This document shows, piece by piece, positions 11,475 to 28,196 of a stretch of DNA of 52,215 nt (positions are counted from its first letter, which is position 1; each line of letters opens with the position of its first letter). The stretch lies in assembly GCA_025359865.1 (NCBI GenBank), contig JANYDH010000106.1:1-52215 (forward strand), in the 5' to 3' direction. The position numbers and the translations under genes are program-made. Source of the DNA: Actinomycetes bacterium. Its GTDB lineage: Bacteria; Actinomycetota; Acidimicrobiia; Acidimicrobiales; Ilumatobacteraceae. The notes under the pieces were generated by a model. That model had not been told where the DNA came from. It did not search any database and saw nothing but the letters and a program-made list of their open reading frames with translations.

Positions 11475-12662
11475 TCACGACCCGCACGCCTCCTCTATCG
11501 CGGCCTGTACCCAACCGAACCGGATGCGTTCCTGCTCAAGCCGGAGGTTCGGTTGTAACCGGTTGTCGCGCAGGTCGTCGTAGAGGGTGAGCTCTGCGGC
11601 CGTGAGTCGATGCAGGTCGCGCCGTGTGGGCTTGTCGTCGACGCCCCAGTAGTCGCGGTGAGCCAACAGTGTCACGCTGTCCATCATCAGCGACGTGGCA
11701 TGCGCAACGACGGCCCGAAGCTGGTCGAGGATGGCTAGGCCGTGCGTGTCGATGTCGCCCCAGTAGTGCACGGGTACATTGGTGAGCCACGGCACATCAG
11801 CCAGGTGATCGAGCCCTGAGCCAGCACCGAACATCACCATCGCATCGGCTACATCGGGAAATGCGAGGAAGTTGATCTCGTTCTCGGTGATGAACAACCG
11901 GCGTGGCGGGTGATCGATCTGCCCGAAGTCGGCGGCGGTCAGCGTGTAGTCGTGATCGCCGTCGGTGGTCGCCAGGCCGCGTCGTGGGTTGAGCGAGCGG
12001 AAGCGCACCAACCGCGGCCGGGTGCGAAAGCCGTAGCGACGAACGAAGTCCGCCCAGCCAACCGTGTGGTCGATGGCTGTCTCCGGAAGCACGATGTCGA
12101 GCATCGCTGCGAGCAGCCGCTGGTGCTGCTCGATGAGTTTCGTGTGCACTCCGGGCACATCGACCTGACGCATGTAGATGCCTGGGAGTGGGTGGCGCTG
12201 AAGCCATTCGACTACTTCGAGGAGCCGGGGCCATGTGTCGGCGGCCGCAAGCGCATCGAACGGTCGCCTGGCGAGCAGCGAGACCAGTGCGGGCAGCTTC
12301 ACCGCCGTGAAGTCGACGAGACCGCGGAACCGGGCCAGCTCGCGCGCCTTGCCGATCGCTGCCGCGGCGGCGTCGACCGTGTCGAACCACACGGCCACGG
12401 GTATCGAGTTCGCCCCCAGCTGGCGATGATTGACCTCGCGTGCCTCCAGGCGGATGCGGCTGATGCCGGTGAGGGCGTTGACCCAGGCGCGCACTTCTTC
12501 GAAGCGGGTACCGAACTCGGCCGACGTGGGCCGCTTGATCACGATGCGCAGCGGGAACATGTCGGCCGGCTGAGCGACATCGGCTAGCAGCTGGCCCCGC
12601 TCCCACTTGCGAAGTACCACCGCACGAACATCGGCCGGCGTGCTCCAACCCGTCACGGTCAC
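11475..12662 (-). CDS. jetD: Wadjet anti-plasmid protein JetD (TOPRIM-type nuclease)
   Basis: 395 residues, last gene of the Wadjet operon. JetD is the nuclease that cleaves circular DNA captured and extruded by the JetABC condensin. The N-terminal half is DUF3322-like ([27 protein letters not shown]). The C-terminal DUF2220/TOPRIM domain has the acidic motif [11 protein letters not shown] (Glu260) and [14 protein letters not shown] with Asp303 and Asp305, the DxD pair of TOPRIM nucleases. All these acidic residues are present, so it should be active. The start is GTG at 12662, overlapping the jetC stop by GTGA; a second GTG lies two codons later. Downstream is IS630 debris. Confidence 0.93.
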
Positions 12663-18197: not shown

Positions 18198-18259
18198 CGA
18201 GGCTTGCCCGTTCGAGTGCCGCCACGTGTTGTGCGGCAACGGCTACTCGCAGCTTTACA

Positions 18260-18283
18260 GTGGGCAAGGGGGGACTTGAACTC
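18260..18283. other. Putative attachment-site duplicate of the tRNA-Leu 3' end (attL)
   Basis: GTGGGC-A-AGGGGGGACTTGAAC matches the 3' end of tRNA-Leu at 22656-22677 in 21 of 22 positions, in the same orientation. It covers the T arm and 3' acceptor strand. The tRNA is on the minus strand, so DNA integrated at its 3' end would lie to its left and end in such a copy. This is the expected geometry of a tRNA-borne att pair, 4.4 kb apart. Confidence 0.65.
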
Positions 18284-18387: not shown

Positions 18388-18419
18388 TTCTACCCGTCCG
18401 GTAGAAGATCCGGTAGAAG
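18388..18419. repeat. GGTAGAAG repeats near the left island edge
   Basis: TTCTACC (18388-18394), GGTAGAAG (18400-18407) and GGTAGAAG (18412-18419) form an inverted plus a direct repeat with about 12-bp spacing. Two more GGTAGAAG copies with 11-bp period occur at the right edge of the island (22589-22607). About one helical turn per unit suggests protein binding, for example integrase or excisionase arm sites. Confidence 0.6.
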
Positions 18420-18494
18420 CCGTCAGACTTCATCACCGGCGCTTCGCATCGTCCGATACGTGCTTTTTGGTTTCATTTCTGGTATCACTGTCTA

Positions 18495-19298
18495 GTGAGC
18501 ACTAGTGAGGTCTACCCAAATGCCCCACTCGCCCTCGTTGCCGTGGAAGTCCGGTTTCCCGACAGCGCCAGCGCTCCGCTCGGCGCGGCCGTCCACCGGG
18601 CAGTGCGCGATCGACTCGGCCGCGACTGGGTGATCGAAGGTGGCAAGCAACAGACCATGGAGGTTGCGTTCGGCCCGAGTGGAATGTCGGCGCCGAACCT
18701 ACGGCAGGAGAACCTGTCGCGAATCACCGTGCGGGATCGGACCCAAGTAGTGACGTTGCGGCCGGACAGTCTCACCATCGAAGCGACGAGATACGGCGGC
18801 TACGACATCTTCCGGGAACTGCTTCACCGAGCGTTTGCCGCCGTCGAGGAGTTGCTCGAACCGGACGGTATCTCGCGGCTCGGTCTCCGATACATCGACG
18901 AGATCTCGGTCCCAACCGGGGACGGACCGACAAACTGGGTCGACTGGGTCCACGGCTCGTTGCTCCCACCTTCCACCGAGTCGCTCGCCCCTGCAACATG
19001 GACAGGTGCGGTCCAGTACGACATCGGGCCACAACGGCGCTTGGTTCTCCGGTACGGCCCGGCCGACCAGCCAGTAGTTGCACCATCAGGGCCGTTGCGC
19101 CGCCTGCGTGCGCCTACCGGGCCGATCTTCATGTTGGACTTCGATAGTTTCTGGCAACCCGAGGAGATTCCTGCGTTCTCAGCCGATGGTCTGGTTCAGT
19201 CATGCGACGACCTACGTGCGCCGGTCCGCACTCTCTTCACCGAACTGGTCAACGATCGCCTTGTCGACGAAGTGTTTCGAATGGAGCCACCGAAATGA
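18495..19298 (+). CDS. TIGR04255 family protein
   Basis: 267 residues. The family N-terminus is visible (YPNAPLALVAVEVRFP), followed by a beta-rich body with SRLGLRYIDEI and a C-terminal helix VRTLFTELVNDRLVDEVF. TIGR04255 proteins are widespread, of unknown function, and often sit beside other small unknown genes in accessory regions. GTG 18495 is the start; a TATCAC box lies 6 nt upstream and no Shine-Dalgarno is seen. Its stop overlaps the next gene's ATG (ATGA), so it is the first of a three-gene coupled operon inside the tRNA-Leu island. Confidence 0.8.
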   Translation: MSTSEVYPNAPLALVAVEVRFPDSASAPLGAAVHRAVRDRLGRDWVIEGGKQQTMEVAFGPSGMSAPNLRQENLSRITVRDRTQVVTLRPDSLTIEATRYGGYDIFRELLHRAFAAVEELLEPDGISRLGLRYIDEISVPTGDGPTNWVDWVHGSLLPPSTESLAPATWTGAVQYDIGPQRRLVLRYGPADQPVVAPSGPLRRLRAPTGPIFMLDFDSFWQPEEIPAFSADGLVQSCDDLRAPVRTLFTELVNDRLVDEVFRMEPPK

Positions 19299-19945
19299 CG
19301 AACACCGAACTGCTTACCGGAGACCGCACCCGAGCCGAGTCGGTCGTCTCGCCAGCGCTCGACCGTCCGACTCGCACCTCGCAGGATGAACTCGCGGACC
19401 GTGCCGGCTTCCTTCATTCCGTGACCCGGATGCTCTCCGATGGCGCTGCTGGTCTTCATCACCGAACCATTGAGATGCAACTTCGGTCTCGCTCGGAGGA
19501 AGCGGCGAAGCGCTCCGCTCCTGACCTTCTCGACGAGCTGGCCGATCTCGGAATCGCATGGCGTGATATCGCACGAATGATCGGTGTCACCGTCCCCGCG
19601 GTGAGGAAGTGGCGTCAAGGTGAGCCGCCTACCGGTGTCCATCGAAAGGCAATCGCCGGGCTGCTCGCGTTCATTGACGTCTTGCGCTCGGAGCACCACA
19701 TCATGGACGTTCCTTCGTGGCTGGAGATGCCGCTCGGTGCTTCGTCTGTGACTGGCCTCGATGTCTATGCCCGCGGACTCATCGAGCCACTCGTGATGCA
19801 CGCTGCCGGACACACGAGCGCTGAGCAACTGCTGGACCACTACGACCCTGCCTGGAGCCGCACAACAGAGAGCCGGTTCGAGATCATCACGGCTGCCGAC
19901 GGGCAGGCGGCCATCAGGATGCGCGATGGGGAGACGCTTGAGTGA
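19295..19945 (+). CDS. Helix-turn-helix protein, second gene of the island operon
   Basis: 216 residues. A helix-turn-helix stands out at residues 88-107: AWRDIARMIGVTVPAVRKW, followed by RQGEPPTGVHRKAIAGLLAF. This is like the Xre/sigma-70 region 4 type, and resembles Xre-like antitoxins with a C-terminal partner-binding helical domain. The first 45 residues look disordered and the last 80 are a mixed domain (ARGLIEPLVMHAAGHTSAE). The start ATG overlaps the TIGR04255 stop, and its own stop overlaps the third gene's GTG by GTGA. It could repress the operon or recognise a DNA or protein partner. I do not recognise the full-length family. Confidence 0.7.
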   Translation: MTNTELLTGDRTRAESVVSPALDRPTRTSQDELADRAGFLHSVTRMLSDGAAGLHHRTIEMQLRSRSEEAAKRSAPDLLDELADLGIAWRDIARMIGVTVPAVRKWRQGEPPTGVHRKAIAGLLAFIDVLRSEHHIMDVPSWLEMPLGASSVTGLDVYARGLIEPLVMHAAGHTSAEQLLDHYDPAWSRTTESRFEIITAADGQAAIRMRDGETLE

Positions 19946-20619
19946 GTCTCTCCGCTTGGGAGACCACGCAGTCGCTCTACTTGGCGCGCGCCGACGAGGT
20001 CTCGGAGCACCGGCCGCTCTTCACAGGAGATGTCGTCCGTGGACCCTCGATCGGTGGTGCACCGGGTACGGACCTCGTGATGATCATCGCCCACCCGTGC
20101 GCGATGCGGTCGGGGCCACATCTCAGTCCGAACGTGCTCGCAGCTGCCGTTCGACCTCACGCGGCGGAGGCACCCGCCCGTTGGACTGACGGCTTCTTCA
20201 ACCGCATGCCGTTGCCCGACCTTGAAGGCGACGGTGGCGCGTTTCACGTCGCCTGGTTGGAGCAGATTGGCCTCGTTCCTACTGAGGACCTGCAGAACGG
20301 CGAGCGGATCGCGTGTCTGTCGACGATCGGGGTCAACATCCTGCAGCAGAGACTCGTGTTCTACCTCACACGCTTGGAGGTCGAAACCTCCGTCTTGTGG
20401 GAGGCCTTCTCGCATACGTACGAGGAATCCGATCTCCTCGAGGAGTGGGTGGAGGCATTGCACGACGTCGAGCCAACACCGACCGAGAGCTTCGAGTCGT
20501 GGATACATGAAGGCTCGCCGACGCGCCAGGACCGGCTGAGAGACGCCCAGTACCGCTCGCAGATACGCGGCGAACTCCGTGCCGAGATACACCAACGGAC
20601 AGCCGCGCAGAACCAATAG
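19942..20619 (+). CDS. Unknown protein, third gene of the island operon
   Basis: 225 residues, not recognised. The N-terminal half has a compact beta-type motif, LFTGDVVRGPSIGG followed by DLVMIIAHPCAMRSG. This resembles the GDV...(T)QxCD arrangement of small uncharacterised proteins in which a Cys or Asp follows a hydrophobic strand; here the residues are His51-Pro-Cys53. The C-terminal half is helical and acidic with an EEWVEALHDVEPTPTE segment and an Arg-rich tail. No membrane segment or signal peptide. GTG 19942 overlaps the previous stop. Fixed coupling with its two neighbours implies a shared job. Confidence 0.65.
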   Translation: MSLSAWETTQSLYLARADEVSEHRPLFTGDVVRGPSIGGAPGTDLVMIIAHPCAMRSGPHLSPNVLAAAVRPHAAEAPARWTDGFFNRMPLPDLEGDGGAFHVAWLEQIGLVPTEDLQNGERIACLSTIGVNILQQRLVFYLTRLEVETSVLWEAFSHTYEESDLLEEWVEALHDVEPTPTESFESWIHEGSPTRQDRLRDAQYRSQIRGELRAEIHQRTAAQNQ

Positions 20620-20632
20620 TCACTCTGGCTCC

Positions 20633-21022
20633 TTACCGGTATTCGCGCGCCAGCGACACCTCGTACAGGGCCGACACCTGGGCGCCGTCGAACTCCATCA
20701 CTTCGGCGCGCACGCCAGGGTCGTGGAGGTCGTGCACCCGGAGCTGGTCGCCAACCTTCACGAGCGACTCGATGCGGACGTAGTGGTCGCCGTAGAGCTC
20801 GGCGTAACGCGCGAGCGCCTGCAGCTTCGGGCGGGTGTCGGCGAGGTAGTCGCCGTGAGGGTCGATGATCGACACCCCGAGCGTGCCATCGCTCCGGCGT
20901 GACACGACGAGGAAGTCGACCTGCAGGGAGCCCCATCCGTCGTTGTCGTCTTGGTAGGCGATACGCAATGAGGCGGGAGTCGGACGTGCGGGGTTTCTAT
21001 ACCAGGCGACGAAGGTCTCCAG
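20633..21022 (-). pseudogene. C-terminal fragment of a DEAD/DEAH restriction-type helicase
   Basis: Reading right to left, the frame is open from 21022 to a stop at 20633. It translates as ETFVAWYRNPARPTPASLRI, then QVDFLVVSR, IIDPHGDYLADTRPKL and ALARYAELYGDHYVRIES. This matches the C-terminal tail of type III restriction/DEAD-box helicase (Res-like) proteins, where the VDPHG, LADA and WYRNP motifs are conserved. A TGA at 21023-21025 interrupts it upstream and the helicase body is absent, so only about 130 codons remain. It is probably debris from an earlier restriction locus in the island. The short ORF from TTG 20968 could still be translated. Confidence 0.65.
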
Positions 21023-21386: not shown

Positions 21387-21416
21387 GTGGACAAGTCATT
21401 AGACAGAGTACGGTCC

Positions 21417-22604
21417 ATGGCTATGGACACCCCATGGATCACCTTCGAGGTTGACCTCGCGAAGATGAGTCCAGCGTTCTGGATGGTTCTCGGTGAGGCT
21501 CGATCGAAGTGCGACCATCTCGCCAGGGTGCCAATGCCTCCTGCGTACGCCCGCGAGCTTCACGAGATCAACCTCTCGAAGGGAGTACACGCGACGACGG
21601 CCATCGAAGGCAACACTTTGAGCGAGGAGGAGGTAGCCGCCATCCTCCGCCGACAGAGCAGGTCGACCGAAACCGACTATCAGGTTCGCGAGGTGGAGAA
21701 CGTCGTCACGGCCTACAACGGTGTACTCGAGCTCCTGCGCACAGGCGACGCCCCCCGGTTGACGCCGGCACTCGTTGATCAGTTCAACCGCCAAGTACTC
21801 GATGGTCTGGACCTTCCCCCAGGGGTGCTGCCCGGTGAGGTTCGTCATCACTCAGTGACCGTCGGCCCGTACCGCGGGCCAGACTGGGAACGCTGTGAGG
21901 AGCTGATCCAGCAGATGTGCGACTGGCTCAACGGTCCGTCGTTCTCCGGGGACGGCAGCATGCGTATCCCCGTTGCGATCATCAAGGCCTCGTTGGCTCA
22001 TCTCTATCTTGCGTGGGTCCATCCGTTCGGAGACGGGAACGGCCGAACTGCTCGCCTGTGCGAGTTCCTCGTTCTCGTGACGTGTGGTGTGCCGACGAGC
22101 GCCGCCCATCTGATCTCGAACCACTGCAACAAGACTCGGGACCAGTACTACCGAGAGCTGCAGTACGCGAGCGAGAGCGGTGGTGACGTCACCCGGTTCC
22201 TCTCCTACTGTGCCTCGGGCTTCGTCGAAGGGCTCGGGGAACAGCTGAGGTGGATCTACGACAGGCAGTTCCGTCTGACGTGGCACGAGTACGTTGGGTC
22301 GCAAGTCACCGGTCGCGATCCAGACATGCGGGAGCGCCGCGCGCGGATCGCAGAGGTGCTGTTGTTCCACGAACCGGTAGCGAAGAAGGACATCCCGCGA
22401 CTCACCCCCGAACTGGCCGAGACGTACGCCGCCAGCGGACCGAAGACCCTCACCCGCGACCTAAACGAGCTCGTCTCGATCGGACTGTTGCGAGCAGCCG
22501 ATGGCCGGTATCAAGCGGACAGCGACGCGCTGATGTCTCTGCTTCCGTTGACGGTGTTTCCCGACGGAACACCGTCAACAAACCCTCCGGTAGAAGTCCG
22601 GTAG
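21417..22604 (+). CDS. Fic family protein with N-terminal inhibitory motif
   Basis: 395 residues. Fic proteins transfer AMP or other phosphate-linked groups to target hydroxyls. The catalytic motif HPFGDGNGRTAR is complete at residues 202-213. An auto-inhibitory (S/T)xxxE(G/N) motif, TTAIEG with Glu64, lies N-terminal as in class II Fic proteins, so activity is probably self-restrained and no separate antitoxin is needed. A C-terminal winged-helix-like segment (RIAEVLLFHEPVAKKDI...TLTRDLNELVSIGLL) is typical of the Fic/DUF4172-like subclass. ATG 21417 is my choice; GTG 21387 and ATG 21423 are alternatives, and none has a clear Shine-Dalgarno. The last codons and stop lie inside the GGTAGAAG repeat at the island edge, so the C-terminus may have been set by integration. 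Confidence 0.88.
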   Translation: MAMDTPWITFEVDLAKMSPAFWMVLGEARSKCDHLARVPMPPAYARELHEINLSKGVHATTAIEGNTLSEEEVAAILRRQSRSTETDYQVREVENVVTAYNGVLELLRTGDAPRLTPALVDQFNRQVLDGLDLPPGVLPGEVRHHSVTVGPYRGPDWERCEELIQQMCDWLNGPSFSGDGSMRIPVAIIKASLAHLYLAWVHPFGDGNGRTARLCEFLVLVTCGVPTSAAHLISNHCNKTRDQYYRELQYASESGGDVTRFLSYCASGFVEGLGEQLRWIYDRQFRLTWHEYVGSQVTGRDPDMRERRARIAEVLLFHEPVAKKDIPRLTPELAETYAASGPKTLTRDLNELVSIGLLRAADGRYQADSDALMSLLPLTVFPDGTPSTNPPVEVR

Positions 22605-22607
22605 AAG
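22589..22607. repeat. GGTAGAAG repeats near the right island edge
   Basis: GGTAGAAG at 22589-22596 and 22600-22607, 11-bp period, overlapping the Fic stop codon. Same unit and orientation as the pair at 18400-18419. They lie 49-67 bp inside the tRNA-Leu end of the island. Confidence 0.6.
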
Positions 22608-22650: not shown

Positions 22651-22655
22651 TTGCG

Positions 22656-22679
22656 GTGGGCGAGGGGGGACTTGAACCC
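22656..22679. other. Putative attachment site in tRNA-Leu 3' end (attR)
   Basis: The T arm and 3' acceptor strand of tRNA-Leu. Near-identical to 18260-18281 with one substitution in the 22-bp core. The intact tRNA copy is on this side, as expected when an element regenerates the tRNA on integration. Confidence 0.65.
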
Positions 22680-22739
22680 CCACATCCTTTCGAATACTAG
22701 CACCTGAAGCTAGCGCGTCTGCCATTTCGCCACTCGCCC
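22657..22739 (-). tRNA. tRNA-Leu (anticodon CAG)
   Basis: 83-nt cloverleaf: acceptor GGGCGAG/CTCGCCC with discriminator A, D arm containing GAAATGGCAGAC, and an anticodon arm CTAGC-TTCAGGT-GCTAG whose loop gives CAG. A long variable arm (TATTCGAAAGGATGT) typical of tRNA-Leu follows, and then T arm GGGGG-TTCAAGT-CCCCC. The 3' CCA is not encoded. A tRNA-Leu at this position, just before the fhaA cluster, also occurs in mycobacteria (leuT). Its 3' end is the probable integration site of the 18.3-22.7-kb island. Confidence 0.96.
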
Positions 22740-26649: not shown

Positions 26650-28196
26650 ACAAGAAGATCCGCCGTCTCGCAGTTGGGCTGCTCGTGTGCTACCTCGTGC
26701 TGTTCATCCAACTGAACATTCTGCAGGTGGCTAAGCAGCAGGAACTGAGCGCCGACCTGCGCAACGATCGCCAAACCATCCGTGACTTCAACCGCACCCG
26801 CGGGCCGATCATCGCTGCCGATGGCACGGTGCTGGCCCGCAGTGTGCCGGTGGTGAACCCGGATGACAGTGCGAAGTATCAGCGTGAGTACCCGCTCGGA
26901 GATCTTTTCGGCAACATCACCGGCTACTACACGTTCAACTTCGGCAGTACCCAACTCGAACGTACGCACGGCGCCGAGTTGTCGGGCACCACGTCGCGCC
27001 AGCAGGTCCGCGCTCTCACCAATCTGCTCGGCGAGGGCGATATCAGCGGTACGGTCGTCACGACCCTGCGGCCCGATGTACAGCAGTTGGCGAAGGATCT
27101 ACTCGCTGGGCGTGAGGGCTCCGTCGTGGTGATGGTGCCGTCGACTGGGGCGGTTATCGCGATGTACAGCTTTCCCAGCTTCGACCCGAATCTCGTGGCC
27201 AATCACGACACCGAAGAAGCCGCCAATGTGCTCAAGTTCCTCACCGCATTACCTGGTAAGCCGCTGCTCGCAAATGCCTATCAAGAGCGCTACATGCCCG
27301 GTTCCAGCTTCAAGGTGATCACTACGGCAACGGCGCTGCAGTACGGCGTCACCTCGCTCGAGCGAGCGTTCCCTAACGAGACCGAGTTCACCCCACCGCA
27401 GACGAATGATCCGATCCGAAACTACGGCGGAAAGGCGTGCGGAGGCACGATGGCCGAAGTCTTCTACCGGAGTTGCAACATCCCGTTCGCCCAGATGGCA
27501 ATCGAGTTGGGGCCTGAGCGAATGGTCGGCGGAACGAAAGCCTGGGGCATCGGTGAAGCCATTCCCATCGACCTTCCCGGTGCGGCCGCCAGCGCGTTCG
27601 GCGAGGTGAGTGACTTCACCGATCGACTGCCGCTGCTCGCCATTGGCGGGTTCGGTCAAGGTAGTGATGTGATGGTGCCGCTGCACATGGCAATGCTGGC
27701 GAGCACCATTGCGAATGGGGGCGAGATGATGAAACCGTACGTCGTCGATGCGACGCTGTACCACGACGGGTCTGTGCTCGAGCGCACCGATCCAGAGGTG
27801 TGGAAGACCCCGATCGATCCAGGGACTGCGTCCACGTTGACGCAGTTGATGATCGGCGTGGTGAACCTGGGCACCGGTCGATCGATGCAGTTGGCGAACG
27901 GCGTTCAGGCCGCAGCCAAGACGGGCACAGCGCAACTCAACGCAGCAGGGGAGCCGCAACGATCACATGCCTGGATCATCGGTTTCGCACCTGCCGAGGC
28001 ACCGCAGTACGCAGTGTCGGTGGTGTTGAAAGGCACGACCGATGAGATCAGCGCCAGCACCGGCGGCAAGCTTGCCGGACCCGTCGCCAAGCAGATCTTC
28101 GACTACTTGTTCGCCCACCCTGATCCCGTACCAGTGGCGCAAAGCGTGTCGGCAGCGACGCCTGCTCCACCTCCGGTAGGGAGTGCCCAGCCATGA
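26646..28196 (+). CDS. pbpA: Class B penicillin-binding protein PbpA (transpeptidase)
   Basis: 516 residues. One N-terminal membrane anchor (RLAVGLLVCYLVLFIQLNIL), a short pedestal domain starting TRGPIIAADGTVLA, then the transpeptidase domain with SSFK (Ser220, Lys223), SCN (276-278) and KTGTA (from Lys425), all in order. It cross-links peptidoglycan with the SEDS partner. The Pro-rich 20-residue tail lacks PASTA repeats. The start overlaps the rodA stop. The gap of 62 bp to pknB contains no clear terminator. Confidence 0.95.
   Translation: MNKKIRRLAVGLLVCYLVLFIQLNILQVAKQQELSADLRNDRQTIRDFNRTRGPIIAADGTVLARSVPVVNPDDSAKYQREYPLGDLFGNITGYYTFNFGSTQLERTHGAELSGTTSRQQVRALTNLLGEGDISGTVVTTLRPDVQQLAKDLLAGREGSVVVMVPSTGAVIAMYSFPSFDPNLVANHDTEEAANVLKFLTALPGKPLLANAYQERYMPGSSFKVITTATALQYGVTSLERAFPNETEFTPPQTNDPIRNYGGKACGGTMAEVFYRSCNIPFAQMAIELGPERMVGGTKAWGIGEAIPIDLPGAAASAFGEVSDFTDRLPLLAIGGFGQGSDVMVPLHMAMLASTIANGGEMMKPYVVDATLYHDGSVLERTDPEVWKTPIDPGTASTLTQLMIGVVNLGTGRSMQLANGVQAAAKTGTAQLNAAGEPQRSHAWIIGFAPAEAPQYAVSVVLKGTTDEISASTGGKLAGPVAKQIFDYLFAHPDPVPVAQSVSAATPAPPPVGSAQP

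Follow-up and report, generated by a model that had tools for sequence, protein, structure and literature searches.

A mobile A-B-C gene trio with a predicted MazF/CcdB-fold protein as a probable three-part toxin-antitoxin-like conflict module in an Ilumatobacteraceae genome

The window analysed here, a stretch of 52,215 nucleotides from an Actinomycetes bacterium of the family Ilumatobacteraceae (assembly GCA_025359865.1), is one whole contig (JANYDH010000106.1) of a 4.99-Mb genome split over 219 contigs. It carries three tightly coupled genes, termed A, B and C, which we consider, with a probability of about 0.6, to form a compact and mobile three-part toxin-antitoxin-like conflict module serving phage defence or the maintenance of mobile elements. 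A preliminary description had proposed a toxin-antitoxin or anti-phage module at this place. The toxin-antitoxin part of that proposal is independently strengthened by two results, namely the MazF/CcdB fold predicted for protein C and the relation of protein B to Xre-type antitoxins, while an anti-phage activity of the trio is a further step that we infer. The three genes are as follows.

Positions 18495 to 19298, forward strand: gene A, GTG start, 267 aa, TIGR04255 family protein, a putative shared third component (possibly a sensor or adaptor)
Positions 19295 to 19945, forward strand: gene B, ATG start, 216 aa, helix-turn-helix (HTH) protein related to Xre/MbcA/ParS, a putative antitoxin and autoregulator
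Positions 19942 to 20619, forward strand: gene C, GTG start, 225 aa, MazF/CcdB fold in residues 22-146 and helical extension in residues 149-224, a putative toxin

A and B overlap by ATGA, B and C by GTGA, and both the positions and this coupling had been given exactly in the preliminary description. As small overlapping genes inherited as a unit, A, B and C show the arrangement by which type II toxin-antitoxin systems are recognised. Gene calls were made by a simple purpose-written script, and the starts of small genes are rough. Among the models of PADLOC 2.0.0, none matched A or C, and B was matched only at E 0.03-0.06.

The gene for C was found in 9 of 149 relatives, the own genome included, and in 38 loci of the genome collection (designated by L numbers below). 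Although these loci had been found with C alone, all three genes are present in the same order in 36 of the 38, and the association is thus not a matter of chance; the two exceptions are L036, which has broken genes and lacks A, and L045, which ends inside C. Moreover, the pairwise distances of A, B and C over 33 loci correlate with r 0.97 for all three gene pairs, a value to which shared descent of the hosts contributes, while the largest of 999 permutations reached 0.40. Among 396 sampled genomes of the phylum, again including the own genome, C occurred in 6, matches of the B-type profile in 9 and TIGR04255 in 31, and each of the 6 C genes had a TIGR04255 gene upstream of it at a distance of no more than about 3 kb. 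Joint conservation of the partners across genomes had been set beforehand as a test of the proposal, and it was found.

Searched to E 1, neither Pfam nor NCBIfam nor PADLOC listed a match for protein C, and one PHROG matched at E 0.13. A Foldseek search with the AlphaFold2 model (mean predicted local distance difference test score, pLDDT, 94.6), a check advised for the third protein in the preliminary description, returned S. aureus MazF as best match at E 9.8e-6, the resemblance to MazF/CcdB toxins extending over residues 22-146; the remaining third of the protein (149-224) is helical in the predicted model. By VIA, the comparison with MazF gave Z 12.3 with a root-mean-square deviation of 2.4 over 109 residues and that with the CcdB chain 1x75_C gave Z 11.3, and the matches listed by both fold searches are MazF and CcdB chains throughout. 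At the level of profiles, hhalign related 34 C proteins to 19 PemK/MazF proteins with a probability of 65% and E 6e-5, compared with less than 1% for six unrelated pairs; all hhalign E-values given here are those of single pairwise comparisons. A direct match to PF02452 (MazF/PemK) was not listed in Pfam up to E 1, the relation being one between profiles only. Taken together, C is confidently predicted to comprise a domain of the MazF/CcdB toxin fold followed by a helical tail. PemK/MazF matches as such are very numerous, with 17 in the window genome (G000) and 22 in G094.

The GDV...HPC motif, which had been pointed out without assignment, is real and partly invariant: M1, R24, G29, D30, H51, P52, C53, M55 and R56 are conserved in 34/34 C proteins, as are W81, R122, G130, Q136, R137, R144, E162, W169 and L199, and the same holds for the HPCxMR motif as a whole. 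A reading of C as a deaminase, suggested by the HPC motif, was set aside, as the MazF/CcdB fold speaks against it. On the plasmid pRaL13e, A and B are intact and C is broken, its first 63 residues lying beside insertion sequence elements and a later part roughly 20 kb distant; this single case fits C being the costly gene.

The preliminary description had attributed a clear HTH to protein B, of which the HTH signal stood and the clarity did not, the matches lying below the Pfam cut-offs (HTH_23 at E 1.3e-3, HTH_3 at E 2.4e-3). In the comparison of profiles, B matched seven PF09722 antitoxins with a probability of 96.9 and E 1.3e-10 over 94 columns, which take in the HTH as well as the C-terminal toxin-binding part. 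When two RES-type partners were added to the antitoxin profile, the match rose to 97.8 and E 9e-13; these two antitoxins, encoded ahead of RES or RES-like genes, had themselves been picked up by the B profile. Judged by these profiles, B is a relative of the Xre/MbcA/ParS antitoxins. Directly upstream of the trio lies a candidate site of its action.

Positions 18469 to 18492, forward strand: two 12-bp direct repeats, GGTTTCATTTCT and GGTATCACTGTC, which stop 2 bp short of the A start codon, a putative operator that overlaps the promoter

The repeat pattern has its sole match in the window at this place. The region preceding A contains at least two GGT[TAG] repeats at distances of 10-13 bp in 29 of 38 sequences and at least three in 18 of 38, with a spacing of exactly 12 in 50 of 54 cases, while 6,200 random control windows of 90 nt from the same loci contained at least two copies in 4.7% and at least three in 0.5%. 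The 38 sequences comprise the window and the 37 loci having A, with L036, which has none, left out. By eye, the same spacing recurs in the plasmid locus L174 and the viral-contig locus L134. It is plausible from this pattern that the repeats constitute the operator of B.

In the mechanism proposed on these grounds, C would be the toxin, in which a MazF/CcdB-fold domain whose active-site region is rewired (HPCxMR) is followed by a helical tail, and B would be the antitoxin that neutralises C and probably also represses the operon at the repeats spaced by about 12 bp, which overlap the promoter. A, as a third component common to other gene pairs, probably senses a trigger or keeps B and C inactive. 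Infection or loss of the element would upset A and B, C would be freed and the cell would be arrested. The scheme, drawn from sequence and predicted structure, is putative as regards the toxicity of C and its target (RNA or gyrase), the neutralising action of B, the function of A, the triggering event and the protection from phages.

The assignment of A to TIGR04255 in the preliminary description was confirmed, the NCBIfam match reaching 128.6 bits against a cut-off of 30. Genes downstream of this family were surveyed at 72 TIGR04255 places in two phyla, comprising 36/36 places of the window's phylum and 36/36 of a second phylum entered via L046 (titled Chloroflexi); both centre genomes had been picked for carrying C, and both are counted. 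A gene for C or for a divergent relative, termed C', follows TIGR04255 in 33 of the 72 places. In this neighbourhood check, which had been envisaged beforehand, C by its profile followed TIGR04255 in 8/72 places and C' in 25/72 (at E up to 0.01 in the first-phylum search and up to 1e-3 in the second).

C' carries a QTCDI-like motif at the position of the HPCxMR motif of C. Its own profile was built from 14 sequences of the first phylum, Pseudomonadota plasmids and one viral locus, including 10 of the 12 first-phylum C' loci and none of the 13 second-phylum loci, and it recovered 13/14 members on leave-one-out, missing L137. By hhalign, C and C' match with 85.5% and 90.9%, while C' against PemK/MazF gave no match (0.1 and 0.4%), so that the link to MazF runs only through C. 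Of 10 middle genes of C' cassettes that were tested, 8 matched an HTH with E no higher than 0.05, 2 of them over the Pfam cut-off. Plasmids of Vibrio furnissii and Sinorhizobium likewise carry A-HTH-C' cassettes, and a Sphingomonas plasmid has A with C' adjoining phage genes. One Sphingomonas cassette has a Fic gene nearby.

Further partners of TIGR04255 include a HEPN-like gene, which follows in 10 of 71 loci searched, and another type of pair of unknown genes in 15 places, of which 13 were recognised by the middle gene, 1 by the third gene and L123 by eye. L109 and L180 have a middle gene in common, which in one of them is followed by a weak HicA match. The labels HEPN-like and HicA-like are weak, with Pfam E of 0.048 and 0.045, below the cut-offs, complemented by reading by eye. 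On the strength of this survey, A looks like a shared component with exchangeable partners. Several cassettes may be recorded in their own right. One type, present in L094, L123-L128, L247, L253, L256, L257, L262, L267, L270 and L276, has a middle protein of ~170 aa (W.G...PT..GG...EW), in some cases then followed by one of ~150 aa. At L138:4986-6731, a TIGR04255 cassette with two other partners lies between large-terminase-like and portal-like phage-contig genes, by eye. L096, L098, L099 and L106 represent four genomes of one genus, mycobacterial by appearance, with TIGR04255 without B or C; in L096, L098 and L099 it stands beside methyltransferase-like and deaminase-like genes, by eye, the deaminase-like genes being separate from C.

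A link to restriction-modification (RM) emerged in L029 (Micrococcales bin), L034 (Kocuria subflava), L035 (Propionicimonas bin) and L044 (Galactobacter valiniphilus), where the order is serine recombinase-A-B-C-hsdM-hsdS-hsdR and where the junctions C/hsdM, hsdM/hsdS and hsdS/hsdR all overlap.

L029:3405-14831: RM-linked element, with similar elements in L034, L035 and L044

HsdM, HsdS, HsdR and the recombinase of L029 as well as HsdR of L035 are confirmed by Pfam, the rest being assigned by similarity, order and size. Relative to L029, HsdM is 82-94% identical and HsdS only 34-63%, as expected of a spreading type I system that changes its specificity. Elsewhere, RM genes near the trio are of type I in L133/L043, a type III methylase in L129/L010 and a type I methylase in L038. 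With PADLOC at 1e-20, the genes closest to the trio in 32 loci (the 38 less 6 near-duplicates or repeats) matched 131 families, with type I RM leading among the 25 listed, while 140 genes from 20 arbitrary regions matched 23 families, 18 of which were PD-T4-6; these figures count models and not genes, and the RM share comes largely from the four related loci. The neighbour set covers 150 of 157 genes (110-899 aa), the large genes being missing.

Mobile surroundings are equally apparent. The trio occurs on two Rhodococcus plasmids beside a MobF relaxase gene and in two viral contigs, in one of them among phage-like genes. Scans of viral contigs with profiles gave 6 loci for A and 1 for C, and those with a single C sequence and with B gave no match. 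None of the phage GenBank records matched A or C of the window, while the distant TIGR04255 protein of L138 matched 3. A location mainly in core metabolic loci, named beforehand as an outcome that would speak against the proposal, was not seen in the neighbourhoods, which were classified in part; type I RM, type III methylase, serine recombinases, plasmids and viral contigs were encountered instead, with L130 as an exception.

Among known systems, three-component toxin-antitoxin systems, such as TAC with its SecB-like chaperone, HipBST, paaR-paaA-parE and tripartite retrons, likewise unite a toxin and its antitoxin with a third, regulatory element in a single operon. To our knowledge, however, A lies outside these families, and it differs from their third components in that it also accompanies several unrelated partner sets. 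RES-Xre, MbcTA and ParST resemble the trio in that B is related to the Xre/MbcA/ParS antitoxins over the HTH and the C-terminal domain, and two matches of the B profile precede RES genes (L115 by Pfam, L116 by eye). On the contrary, the gene beside B encodes a MazF-fold and not a RES protein, and B has an extra N-terminal region; no RES match was found for C in Pfam, so the adjacent RES toxin that marks RES-Xre pairs is absent here.

With MazEF/PemIK the trio shares the MazF fold of C, including the weak PemK/MazF profile match, and the form of a small antitoxin-toxin operon with probable autoregulation. C is, however, about twice as long and has the invariant HPCxMR in place of a conserved MazF catalytic Arg; furthermore, its partner is Xre-type and not AbrB, RHH (ribbon-helix-helix) or PHD, and a third gene, A, is present. 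Xre is not among the MazF partners tabulated in the accessible part of PMC2701414. In the RptR-DarTG2 island of E. coli, as far as the accessible part of PMC12255303 describes it, toxin-antitoxin genes and a small dedicated regulator are combined with a type I RM system, which provides a precedent for the trio-hsd operons; the toxin there is the unrelated DarT, whereas here three toxin-antitoxin-like genes precede hsdM, hsdS and hsdR. Wadjet and Fic are neighbours in the window; in the neighbourhoods read, neither was seen to accompany the trio regularly, no systematic search for them having been made. No paper dealing with TIGR04255 by name was found within the literature searched. A-B-C is best read as a variant of toxin-antitoxin-like conflict modules not found in that literature.

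Several observations weigh against a toxin-antitoxin-like conflict module and were set against the evidence given above. B remains under every Pfam HTH cut-off and has no direct PF09722 match up to E 1, and 9 of the 38 sequences are without the upstream repeats, 7 of them belonging to the near-duplicate groups L011/L012/L014 and L022/L024/L028/L045. The role of A is a guess, and 4 of the 36 first-phylum TIGR04255 places stand alone, L106 beside a gene that reads as proA. With tblastn, HsdM/HsdS-like genes came up in just 6 of 38 loci carrying the trio, and the four organisms with similar RM operons, of which two are binned genomes, may owe them to a single recent acquisition. Of 10 neighbours of the trio picked by hand, 5 are without a PADLOC match, and the trio of L130 adjoins a metabolic gene for a succinate dehydrogenase-type flavoprotein. 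Finally, the catalytic Arg of MazF, which we take to lie before the second core strand by its position in B. subtilis MazF, is not conserved: 18 of 34 C proteins have an Arg at a distance of 5-9 residues ahead of HPC. Owing to this, C cannot be classified as an ordinary MazF; it may act on RNA via a new site or act like CcdB. That C is a gyrase poison like CcdB and not an RNase like MazF would agree with the missing Arg and with CcdB matches nearly as high as those of MazF (Z 11.3 for 1x75_C), yet we deem it unlikely, since the profile matches PemK/MazF, MazF ranks first in Foldseek and H, C and R, being invariant, point to a chemical site.

The other alternatives concern the purpose of the trio and the part played by A. 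The trio might mainly serve as an addiction module keeping plasmids, prophages and islands stable, with phage protection incidental, as its presence on plasmids beside the MobF relaxase gene, in viral contigs, in a tRNA-bounded unit and in serine-recombinase elements would suggest; its placement in type I RM operons and beside Wadjet favours defence, and a mainly addictive purpose therefore appears somewhat unlikely to us, although the two roles are not exclusive. Quite unlikely, in our estimation, is a regulatory or sensor cassette in which C would be related to MazF in fold without being toxic, and B would act as repressor of the operon and, where RM genes are linked, would set the timing of their expression in the manner of RptR in E. 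coli. Such a function is in keeping with a B-type HTH and repeats at the promoter, with the first position of the trio in the RM operon and with the repressor of a type I RM island with embedded toxin-antitoxin genes published in PMC12255303, in so far as its accessible part goes; it is opposed by the toxin fold of C, which is kept together with B, by the low number of loci with HsdM/HsdS-like genes and by the HEPN-like genes that replace C in 10/71 TIGR04255 loci, fitting effectors better than regulators. As regards A, an active enzyme of guanido-kinase-like fold that controls the toxin by modifying B or C, for instance by phosphorylation, might be envisaged from its model (pLDDT 88.9), for which VIA gave guanido kinases in all of the 21 best matches, the protein-arginine kinase McsB among them, and from the invariant charged residues E18, R128, R132, E136, D215 and D217. 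The resemblance to the catalytic domains of these kinases is borderline, however, with Z up to 8.2, values near 8 falling in the range for which the tool warns of what may be just a common arrangement, and with a Foldseek E not below 1e-3, and we rate this activity of A as very unlikely. The fold matches of A also include S-adenosylmethionine decarboxylases. Sequence searches against solved structures yielded no usable match, the best one for A, 9hnh at E 0.0079, having been discarded as two short pieces of a repetitive chain.

In the window itself, the trio is part of a 4.4-kb unit bounded by direct copies of a 27-nt segment from the 3' end of tRNA-Leu(CAG). The unit and its surroundings comprise the following features in addition to the trio.

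Positions 11475 to about 18190, reverse strand: Wadjet type I jetABCD, a complete operon, with jetA, jetB and jetC recognised by PADLOC and jetD by Pfam
Positions 18255 to 18281, forward strand: left copy of the tRNA-Leu 3' end, an att-like direct repeat, 24/27 identical to 22651-22677 (blastn E 1.3e-4)
Positions 18398 to 18419, forward strand: pair of CCGGTAGAAG near the left repeat, possible integrase arm sites
Positions 20633 to 20968, reverse strand: helicase remnant of 111 aa, the C-terminal end of a DEAD/DEAH-box helicase family protein
Positions 21387 to 22604, forward strand: Fic family protein (SoFic-type; Pfam Fic E 1.4e-12, PADLOC SoFic E 1.1e-53)
Positions 22587 to 22607, forward strand: pair of CCGGTAGAAG near the right repeat
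Positions 22651 to 22677, forward strand: right copy, a direct repeat and the 3' end of tRNA-Leu(CAG), the tRNA lying at 22655-22739 on the reverse strand by ARAGORN

The trio had been placed alone in an island between Wadjet and Fic, a description that has to be amended: the unit between the repeats holds the trio, the truncated helicase remnant and the Fic gene as its cargo, while Wadjet lies outside, directly to the left of the left tRNA-Leu repeat. Although the Fic gene resides in the same 4.4-kb unit, we do not hold it to be a member of the trio. The remnant, a decayed gene between trio and Fic, has no Pfam match; by tblastn it found 34 plasmid records, the 8 listed all being annotated as DEAD/DEAH box helicase, with 41-44% identity and E down to 4e-18. 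The decamer CCGGTAGAAG was chosen after it had been noticed and was counted afterwards, with 5 exact matches in the window compared with 0.06 expected; four of these form the pairs 18398/18410 and 22587/22598, just inside both ends of the unit, and the fifth, at 27461, lies outside it. The tRNA-Leu(CAG) at 22651-22739 adjoins an FHA-domain-like gene. Four congeners were searched at tRNA-Leu(CAG), and the sequence beyond the tRNA was examined in three. None of the genes called in the window from its left end to Fic was found at this tRNA in the three congeners at E 1e-8; they carry other cargo there, with a 445-aa integrase-like protein nearby in two, confirmed by Pfam for L211. The site looks like an integration hotspot of the genus with changing cargo.

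Beyond the trio itself, TIGR04255 may tentatively be viewed, at somewhat less than even odds, as the hallmark subunit of a large, so far unrecognised family of three-part immune cassettes in several phyla, plasmids and phages. In such cassettes A would control exchangeable putative effectors, be it MazF-fold proteins with a conserved-cysteine site (HPCxMR or QTCDI-like), HEPN-like proteins or others, and in some cases the cassette would be built into a type I RM operon as a fail-safe, to be triggered once restriction has been overcome. If this holds true, TIGR04255, hitherto labelled only as 'sporadic, unknown', could be tested as the subunit that controls toxin cassettes across several bacterial phyla. 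A function could likewise be tested for a divergent branch of the MazF/CcdB fold whose putative active site is new. A-B-C-hsdMSR would, in addition, join the few known suicide-type modules hard-wired to restriction and thereby offer a test of whether such modules guard restriction.

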